DNA from: Gemmatimonadaceae bacterium
GTDB lineage: Bacteria; Gemmatimonadota; Gemmatimonadetes; Gemmatimonadales; Gemmatimonadaceae
Reading direction: 5' to 3'
Assembly: GCA_011525845.1 (NCBI GenBank)
Contig: WYBP01000008.1
Coordinates: 62,001 to 126,000 of the forward strand
DNA: 64,000 nt
In this document: in pieces, positions 4,193-51,608 of the stretch
How the letters are laid out: the number at the start of each line of letters is the position of its first letter
How positions within the stretch are numbered: position 1 is the first letter of the stretch
Made by a program: the position numbers and the translations under genes
The notes under the pieces: generated by a model
Databases searched by the model: none
The model's input: the letters and a program-made list of their open reading frames with translations, nothing else
What the model was told of the DNA's origin: nothing

Positions 4193-5062
4193 GTGCGAGG
4201 ACGAGGACCCGGAGCGAATCACAAGCGGTCGCTCAATGACGAAGGGTCGCTGGACCAATACCTCCGCGACATCAGCATCTATCCGCTGATCTCGCGGGAG
4301 GAGGAGGTCCGGCTCGCGCAGCGCATCCGCGAGGCCGACCAGGAGGCGCTCGACACTCTCGTGCGGTCGAACCTCCGGTTCGTGGTCTCCGTCGCCAAGA
4401 AGTACCAGAACCAGGGCGTGAACCTCTCGGACCTGATCAACGAGGGGAACCTCGGCCTCATCCGCGCGGCCCACAAGTTCGACGAGACCAAGGGGATCAA
4501 GTTCATCTCCTACGCGGTCTGGTGGATCCGGCAGGCGATCCTCCAGGCGCTCGCCGAGCAGAGCCGGATCGTGCGCGTGCCGCTCAACCGCGCCGGCGCG
4601 CTCCACCGCATCGGCAAGCGGGCCAACGCCCTCCTGCAGGAGCTCGGCCGCGAGGCCACGCACGCGGAGATCGCCGAGGGGATGGAGATCACGGAGGAGG
4701 AGGTCGCGAAGACGATGGCGATCTCGCAGACCCACCTCTCGCTCGACGCGCCGATGGCCCCCGGCGAGGACAACCGGCTCCTCGACTACCTCCCCGACAC
4801 GCAGAGCGCGACGCCGGAGGACGAGTCCACCCAGAAGGCGCTCGCCGACTCGGTGCACGAGGCGCTCGCGGGGCTCAAGGAGCGCGAGGCCAAGATCCTC
4901 CGCCTCTACTTCGGGCTCGACGGCTCCGAGCCGATGACGCTCGAGCAGATCGGCGCGGTGCTCAACATCACGCGCGAGCGGGTGCGGCAGATCAAGGAGA
5001 AGGCACTCTCGCGGCTCCGCCACGTGAGCCGGGCGCGGGCGCTGGAGTCGTACCTGGGATGA
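4193..5062 (+). CDS. RNA polymerase sigma factor, sigma-70 family (RpoD/SigA-like, short form)
   Basis: A 289-residue sigma factor that would direct RNA polymerase to -35/-10 promoters. It has region 1.2 (LDQYLRDISIYPLI), the full region 2 with the -10 and melting segment (GLIRAAHKFDETKG, then FISYAVWWIRQAI), region 3, and region 4 ending in a helix-turn-helix (LTLEQIGAVLNITRERVRQI). Region 1.1 and the non-conserved insert of long RpoD proteins are absent, so it is a compact group 1/2 factor. The GTG start at 4193 follows GGAGGG closely. Its stop codon abuts the first heptamer array of an inverted-repeat element. Confidence 0.93.
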   Translation: MRGRGPGANHKRSLNDEGSLDQYLRDISIYPLISREEEVRLAQRIREADQEALDTLVRSNLRFVVSVAKKYQNQGVNLSDLINEGNLGLIRAAHKFDETKGIKFISYAVWWIRQAILQALAEQSRIVRVPLNRAGALHRIGKRANALLQELGREATHAEIAEGMEITEEEVAKTMAISQTHLSLDAPMAPGEDNRLLDYLPDTQSATPEDESTQKALADSVHEALAGLKEREAKILRLYFGLDGSEPMTLEQIGAVLNITRERVRQIKEKALSRLRHVSRARALESYLG

Positions 5063-5065
5063 GGG

Positions 5066-5185
5066 GTGAGGTGTAAGGTGTGAGGTGTAGGGTGTGAGGT
5101 GCCCCAGGACGGCTGCGTGGCGCACCCCGTCCATCCGATCGACTAAGTTTCCTCACACCTCCCACCTCCCACCTCACACCTCCCA
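5066..5185. repeat. inverted heptamer-array element without a gene (copy A)
   Basis: The left arm has five consecutive 7-bp units of the type GTGAGGT at 5066-5100. The right arm has five units of the inverse type CCTCACA/CCTCCCA at 5151-5185. The 50-base centre holds its own hairpin, GGACGG (5107-5112) with CCGTCC (5127-5132). The left array begins four bases after the sigma-factor stop and the right array ends six bases before the yajQ GTG, so the element forms the whole spacer. It shares its architecture with the loci at 47511-48051 and 51485-51605. Confidence 0.8.
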
Positions 5186-5191
5186 CCCGCC

Positions 5192-47510: not shown

Positions 47511-48051
47511 GCAGATGTGAGATGGGAGATGGGAGATGTAAGGTAACGACCCGCGGGCGAAGGCTCCCATCGCCGTTCCCCTCGCCGGCTAGCGTCGAGC
47601 ATGTTCCCGTTCCGAAGGCTGGCGGTGTGGGAGAAGGCGCATGCGCTCACCCTCCGCGTCTACAGCGCGACCGAGGGGCCGCAGACGCGACGCTTTCCCG
47701 GGTTGCAGGCGCAGCTTCGGCGCGCCGTGGCCGCGATCCCCACCAACATCTCTGAGGGATCCGGGCACGCCTCCCAGGCGCAGTTCAACCGCTTCCTCGA
47801 GATCGCGCTGGCCTCGGCGCGTGAGGCGGACTATCACCTCCTCCTCGCCAGGGACCTCGAAATCCTCTCCGAACGCGAGTACGCCCACTTGGAGGCGAGA
47901 CTCTCCGAGGTGCAGGGCATGCTCATGGGCCTCCGCAAGCGCGTGCTGGAACGGCTCCGGGAGAACAAGCGCGGTGAGCGGCCGAGGGGGGAGAACGGAA
48001 AGAGGGGAGGCCGAAAGGCCTCCCCCCTCCCATCTCCCATCTCACATCTGC
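47511..48051. mobile_element. S23/four-helix-bundle gene enclosed by 25-bp perfect inverted repeats (copy B)
   Basis: Bases 47511-47535 and 48027-48051 are exact reverse complements over 25 bp. Both are made of heptamers: GCA, then GATGTGA, GATGGGA, GATGGGA on the left. The left array continues one more unit (GATGTAA). Inside is one gene on the plus strand. A GNRA-loop hairpin at 48004-48025 sits just inside the right repeat. The element lies between two minus-strand genes, ychF and hppA. rRNA intervening sequences that carry S23 genes also have inverted termini, so mobility is plausible, but there is no transposase or visible target duplication. Confidence 0.6.
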
Positions 48052-48062
48052 AGGAGCACTAG
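47601..48062 (+). CDS. four-helix bundle protein, S23/bAvd family
   Basis: A 153-residue protein of the 23S-rRNA-intervening-sequence (S23) family. Its hallmarks are [58 protein letters not shown] and a final helix to about residue 118. The fold is a pentameric four-helix bundle in relatives, which bind nucleic acid; no enzymatic activity is known. The last ~35 residues (basic, then [14 protein letters not shown]) are encoded by the hairpin and the right inverted repeat and are not part of the fold. It overlaps the hppA stop by 4 bp on the opposite strand. No reverse transcriptase is nearby, so it is not a DGR accessory gene. Confidence 0.85.
48004..48025 (+). other. GNRA-tetraloop hairpin at the right end of the S23 element
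   Basis: GGGGAGGCC (48004-48012), loop GAAA, GGCCTCCCC (48017-48025): a perfect 9-bp stem capped by a GNRA tetraloop, immediately inside the right inverted repeat. Such stable caps are typical of structured RNAs. It lies within the 3' part of the S23 reading frame. Confidence 0.6.
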
Positions 48063-51484: not shown

Positions 51485-51605
51485 AATGGGAGATGTGAGA
51501 TGGGAGAGGTGAGGGAACTACCCCCCTCCTCTTCCTCGGCTCATCTCCCGCCTGGTCCTGCATCCTGCGTACTGCAACCTCACATCTCACAACTCCCATC
51601 TCCCA
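51485..51605. repeat. inverted heptamer-array element without a gene (copy C)
   Basis: The left arm at 51485-51512 has four 7-bp units (AATGGGA, GATGTGA, GATGGGA, GAGGTGA). The right arm at 51578-51605 has four inverse units (CCTCACA, TCTCACA, ACTCCCA, TCTCCCA). The 65-base centre carries no reading frame. The element ends three bases before the prs stop. Unit sequence and inverted layout match the S23 element at 47511-48051, so this looks like a deleted, non-autonomous relative. Confidence 0.75.
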
Positions 51606-51608
51606 TCC

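Follow-up and report, generated by a model that had tools for sequence, protein, structure and literature searches.

The locus between prs and rplY raised the question of what a gene-less stretch bounded by inverted heptamer arrays is, and whether it belongs with the S23 gene located 4 kb away. The stretch occupies positions 51486–51606 of the window, meaning the whole 64 000 nt of Gemmatimonadaceae DNA that was analysed. The original prediction had described four heptamers on each side of a 65 nt centre lacking a gene, and this was borne out. The left arm (51486–51513, plus strand) consists of the tandem heptamers ATGGGAG ATGTGAG ATGGGAG AGGTGAG with GGCAA immediately outside. The inverted right arm (51579–51606, minus strand), which ends a few nucleotides from the prs stop codon, comprises four heptamers read on the minus strand as ATGGGAG ATGGGAG TTGTGAG ATGTGAG, and the arms displayed 86 % complementarity across 29 nt. 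They enclose a 65 nt centre (51514–51578) that includes GGTCCTGCATCCTGCGTACTGCAAC. The spacer from the prs stop to the rplY start measures approximately 200 nt, which leaves no room for any notable gene; the element is situated outside any 23S rRNA gene and contains no S23 ORF. Folded as RNA it yielded predicted z-scores of −3.65 (plus strand) and −4.00 (minus strand), and the arms, which bracket the resident prs–rplY spacer, are predicted to form a long hairpin in the transcript. Beside the array lies a conserved leader upstream of rplY, which encodes L25 (51430–51475, minus strand). The leader was present in nearly all congeners, had no Rfam match and may be an L25 autoregulatory leader; a tRNA was the sole Rfam match in the window. 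The centre also contains CCTGCAT, CCTGCGT and ACTGCAA (51540–51578), which may be left over from an earlier heptamer 'dialect', as in the congener G006.

The S23 gene of the window (47601–48059, plus strand; PF05635, E 6.9e-29) encodes a predicted four-helix bundle and is flanked by a left arm at 47511–47542 (plus strand), with the same unit as the prs–rplY element, and a right arm at 48020–48051 (minus strand). Within these, 25 nt (47511–47535 and 48027–48051) are 100 % complementary. The arm sequences support the earlier claim that both elements draw on a common unit family: the prs–rplY element comprises inverted tandem 7 nt arrays with the unit that flanks the S23 gene of its own genome. 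The S23 reading frame enters the right array, which encodes the C-terminal residues of the protein. A third, gene-less element was identified at 5057–5187 (arms 5057–5101 and 5151–5187) with the unit GTGGGAG/GTGTGAG.

The source genome (G000; 3.58 Mb, 25 contigs) contained 290 matches (135+155) to KGAGATGKGAGATGKGAG with ≤2 mismatches, compared with 1+0 for a reversed control, and the heptamer pattern is therefore not due to chance. There was one PF05635 match in the genome, the S23 gene of the window. On the three fully listed contigs (C1, C3 and C8) we counted 21 array loci in 740 kb, which by extrapolation suggests about 100 array loci in the genome. The genome-wide ratio of gene-bearing to gene-less copies, proposed with the original prediction as a check, thus comes to 1 gene-bearing locus against about 100 gene-less ones. 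Array loci sampled around pattern matches comprised 31 paired elements plus solo arrays. Exactly four heptamers were present in 40/60 sampled arms, and the outer ends of the sampled arms had a consensus near GAAC(G/T)GCAG. The centres ranged from 7 to 94 nt and differed from locus to locus, several containing terminator-like hairpins.

Comparison across the genus revealed that the S23 locus was orthologous (ychF–S23–hppA) in ten species and that the flanking heptamers differed. The unit was ATGGGAG in G000 and G016, GTGGGAG/GTGTGAG in G003, TYGTGAG in G015, GMTGAAG in G014 and G012, GACGGAA in G008, ACKTGAG in G005, CAGGNNT-like in G001 and ATGTGAG/ATGTAAG in G011. The orthologous prs–rplY spacer either carried arrays in the dialect of that species or was short or empty. 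Across the eight genomes with units at both sites, similarity between the own-genome units was unbeaten in 40 320 permutations, and the own genome was the best match in seven of eight rows, the exception being G000, whose unit is common to G016. The unit at prs–rplY therefore tracks that of the S23 locus between species.

Units read off S23 flanks were then searched in 61 genomes. ACKTGAG displayed 83 matches in G005 and no more than 14 in any other congener; beyond the genus it was found in G041 (146), G021 (128, where a related GAGAGTT unit occurs), G046 (63) and G048 (44). GACGGAA had 237 matches in G008 and also 140 in G005, whilst GMTGAAG had 206 in G014 and 45 in G012, followed by G009 (39), G015 (33), G001 (28) and a small count in G004. 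AGTGACT, the unit of one S23 gene in G022, was found 494 times in that genome, 71 times in G021 and ≤7 times in each of the other 59. The unit at an S23 flank is thus a predictor of the heptamer dispersed across its genome, and S23 paralogues within one genome had different units. At the orthologous locus, S23 similarity was correlated with unit similarity (rho 0.49, reached by 7/5000 permutations). The correlation held given species relatedness (partial 0.50, 9/5000 permutations), as represented by two proteins, PRS and RplY, the YchF fragments being too uneven; S23 similarity itself was scarcely related to this measure (rho 0.06). A correlation at one locus may simply reflect gene and flanks travelling together. 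Arrays throughout the genome, however, share the S23-locus unit, which argues for action in trans, and the tracking of the dispersed unit between species lends support to the earlier suggestion that a single S23 locus could serve the gene-less copies. Counting against such a reading, G005 carries two dialects, ACKTGAG and GACGGAA, of which only the former fits its ychF–hppA S23.

Two congeners have lost S23: in G010 and G013 the gene has gone from the ychF–hppA site and remnants are left. G006 retains an ORF (L130) in which PATIAAG replaces PxNIAEG, such that the invariant N and E are changed, and which has no flanking heptamers; it appears to be an S23 copy in decay, and arrays are few in G006. 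In a unit-agnostic comparison of sampled DNA from 15 genomes, with contig starts over-sampled, six genomes without intact S23 (G010, G013 and G006, together with G043, G053 and G055, from which the gene is absent) contained four period-7 arrays in 909 kb, compared with 73 in 1331 kb for nine S23-bearing genomes (Mann–Whitney p 0.006). Many arrays without S23, which had been named as the case that would overturn the proposal, were not seen in any near-complete genome examined. Some genomes nevertheless count against dependence on S23: G011 and G015 carry the gene but displayed array densities only slightly above those of S23-less genomes, G035 had 11 S23 matches, yet a 100 kb sample of it contained no tandem arrays, and G007 (77 % complete) and G002 (71 % complete) had arrays and no S23 found.

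The association extended well beyond the genus. GTDB species genomes were scanned with one S23 protein, and the 80 loci obtained came from Acidobacteriota, Planctomycetota, Alphaproteobacteria, Chloroflexota, Bacteroidota, Cyanobacteria, WOR-3 and further groups. Period-7 arrays were present within 300 nt upstream of S23 in 54/76 cases, downstream in 47/78 and on both sides in 36/74, compared with 0/136 control windows approximately 2 kb away; periods other than 7 were at control level. Period counts were used since inverted-repeat scores against shuffled pairings made a poor control, units being alike between loci. The remaining adverse case named at the outset, S23 genes never flanked by arrays, was likewise not encountered, as most loci were flanked. 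Together with the near-absence of arrays where S23 is lost or broken, these data bear on the proposed comparison of S23 presence with arrays across phyla. Three loci (L082, L089 and L387) instead had long non-tandem inverted flanks, nearly perfect over 128 nt in L387. These are possibly a second flank type, and those of L082 and L089 were counted against the S23-element reading.

Such results bear on whether the arrays are simple repeats made by slippage and homogenized by gene conversion, S23 being uninvolved. Array length does vary, for example in GTTCCCT copy number between Nostoc plasmids, as slippage would allow. Period 7 alone was preferred, however, arrays are paired in inverted orientation, units match S23 specifically and arrays are nearly absent without S23. 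On the grounds of period preference, unit match and scarcity without S23, we rejected plain slippage, which we regard as extremely improbable.

How the arms came to lie at prs–rplY was addressed through the centre, which showed homology across species irrespective of whether arms were present: 12/78 pairs, including G014–G010, G000–G010 and G000–G006, exceeded all 300 shuffles. This indicates that the spacer was already resident and that the arms were placed, or rewritten, on either side of it. The original prediction had cast the copies as a MITE-like series; gene-bearing and gene-less copies with a common unit family do exist, but the copy at prs–rplY did not arise by shrinkage of an S23 element. 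Its origin as an S23-deletion derivative or MITE-type internal deletion was discarded, given that its centre matches the spacer of arm-less congeners. As orthologous sites keep their arrays whilst the letters change, in-place rewriting needs explaining and not only MITE-like hopping. The congener prs–rplY alleles were too diverged for target-duplication comparison, and some of the spacers were short.

Evidence of mobility came instead from cyanobacterial plasmids in PLSDB, on which S23 genes with inverted heptamers were found. At site A, in a VirB10 operon with surroundings 97 % identical, filled and empty alleles were both present, with a GTAAT 5 bp duplication; the empty allele reads AAAAAGTAATTAACAAATAA and the filled allele AAAAAGTAAT-AAATCAG...S23...TTCTTCTTT-GTAATTAAC. 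At site D, on Nostoc plasmids, an element with related units lies between TTCTA duplicates. Sites B and C displayed filled and empty alleles without clean duplication, and at site C one plasmid carried a gene-less element with GGGAACT/GGGAATA arms. Filled alleles varied in array length. In Nostoc (C052), a gene-less TCAGGAG-type element was present in one plasmid and the corresponding spacer of another was without it. In Anabaena sp. 90 plasmid pANA02 (L321: 2120–2497 and 2495–2863), S23 lies within a type I-D CRISPR operon, where its neighbours are cas6 and cas4, with a long AGGTGAC/AGGGAAC heptamer array upstream, and a 99 %-identical plasmid (L324) is without S23.

No transposase or recombinase was found as part of the S23–heptamer element, which leaves the movement step without an enzyme and counts against the S23-element reading. 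An AlphaFold2 model of the window S23 displayed a four-helix bundle (pLDDT 89.9), and its best PDB matches were XCC0516 (2gsc), a homopentamer (PMC4990558), and BT_0352 (2rld); PF05635, the S23/IVP family, is described as being of unknown function (PMC4990558). The model also matched Avd of diversity-generating retroelements (DGRs; 4dwl) with a TM-score by target length of 0.80–0.84, a weak E of 0.08–0.23 and approximately 13 % identity, and weakly matched the DGR ribonucleoprotein that contains Avd (8ub7). These resemblances would suit an arrangement whereby a reverse transcriptase spreads and rewrites arrays with S23 as an Avd-like retroelement cofactor, and RNA copying would account for in-place rewriting. 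Yet RVT_1 (PF00078) had no match in G000, G005, G011 or G015, the last two of which carry arrays and are complete or nearly so, and within the genus was found in G007 only (77 % complete). Reverse transcription as a requirement for spread was rejected because these four genomes lacked an RVT_1 match, and we consider this explanation very unlikely. Mobilization by a Y1 (RAYT) transposase, as for REP/REPIN elements, fared worse. The layout of one gene-bearing locus with many gene-less hairpins is shared, as the original prediction had pointed out, and so is the unit pairing, but Y1 transposase (PF01797) had no match in 17 same-genus genomes, G000 included. The parallel therefore stands as an analogy only; identity with REP/RAYT was rejected for want of a Y1 transposase in the genus and is, in our judgement, practically impossible.

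In view of these results, the stretch at 51486–51606 is probably a gene-less member of an S23-dependent dispersed repeat family, in which S23 elements are mobile and unit-matched and arrays are kept uniform in trans. The link between arrays and S23 is strongly supported; the dependence of arrays on S23 rests on correlation. Small mobile elements with inverted tandem arrays of a 7 nt (rarely 8 nt) unit at their ends would carry the S23 genes, each S23 protein would fit its own unit, and gene-less arrays of that unit would be spread and kept uniform in trans. Such unit-matched spread and homogenization would give rise to species heptamer dialects. S23 itself may recognize the arrays, perhaps as a pentameric ring like that of its solved relatives, on a hairpin strand or RNA, and may recruit a host or mobile-element enzyme for their insertion or rewriting.

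The main rival is a host regulatory role, which is compatible with the S23-element mechanism. S23 would be a sequence-specific RNA-binding regulator with a TRAP-like ring, and the arrays a host-useful regulon of gene-end hairpins tuning termination or RNase processing; selection would keep the arrays, which would follow S23 specificity, and the element would not be mainly selfish. Arrays do adjoin stop codons and terminator-like hairpins, the count of exactly four heptamers recurs, solved S23 proteins are pentameric (PMC4990558), S23 allele co-varies with dialect and the prs–rplY element has a predicted hairpin (z −3.7/−4.0). On the other hand, polymorphic plasmid insertions with target duplications, and array numbers that are very uneven among close species, with almost none in some, both resemble a mobile element more than a conserved regulon; we regard this role as an unlikely principal explanation. 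A wider version of the S23-element reading, about which we are somewhat doubtful, is that of pan-bacterial minimal mobile elements, whereby an enzyme-less Avd-like S23 would read a 7 nt word and maintain hundreds of arrays, and a change of S23 allele would lead to in-place rewriting of arrays throughout the genome into the new dialect.

Several known systems share parts of this organization. In the 23S rRNA intervening sequence (IVS) of Coxiella, tandem GACAGAT heptamers (two to three copies plus a degenerate one) precede the S23 ORF, and RNase III cuts the IVS out of the rRNA (PMC4990558). The IVS elements of Coxiella and Leptospira thus resemble those described here in combining an S23 family protein with hairpin-forming ends, but here S23 is intergenic and not in rRNA, with approximately 100 gene-less copies and species-specific units. 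REP/REPIN elements with RAYT likewise have one gene-bearing locus, many gene-less hairpins and unit-specific gene pairing, whereas the present elements have no Y1 in the genus, tandem heptamer ends and a non-enzymatic-looking four-helix bundle. Avd shares the S23 fold and sits with a reverse transcriptase in the solved DGR ribonucleoprotein (8ub7), but no reverse transcriptase was found in G000 or near-complete congeners and no template/variable repeat pair was seen. MITEs and IS-derived elements have inverted ends, gene-bearing and gene-less forms and 5 bp duplications (seen here on plasmids); here, in contrast, there is no transposase gene, the heptamer ends vary in letters and gene-less centres differ by locus.

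Dispersed intergenic heptamer repeats have been described in Xanthomonas (GGGAATC) and Nostoc (GGGGAYT) (PMC4692102), as have TAACTGA repeats in Beggiatoaceae (PMC4679880). In Xanthomonas, arrays of four units are favoured and some arrays form inverted pairs (PMC4692102). Neither text mentions S23; what our analysis adds to these repeats is their connection to S23, together with the matching of dialects and the insertions. S23 and heptamer repeats are known separately, and none of the open-access papers searched couples them (most subscription papers fall outside that search). Several earlier reports of heptameric repeats in bacteria name no agent. Coupling the repeats to S23 provides each with a role that can be tested, in which S23 acts in trans on a repeat family and the match between gene and repeats can be read letter for letter from genomes. 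The system would exemplify short dispersed repeats that change in concert throughout a genome, for which G010, G013 and G006 offer natural knock-outs, and our data point to S23–heptamer elements as a little-understood family of mobile elements. Some units are longer than seven: at L365–L369 in G032 and at L087, S23 is surrounded by 8 nt units (GGAGGGCA), which also occur in gene-less arrays and predominate in G032.
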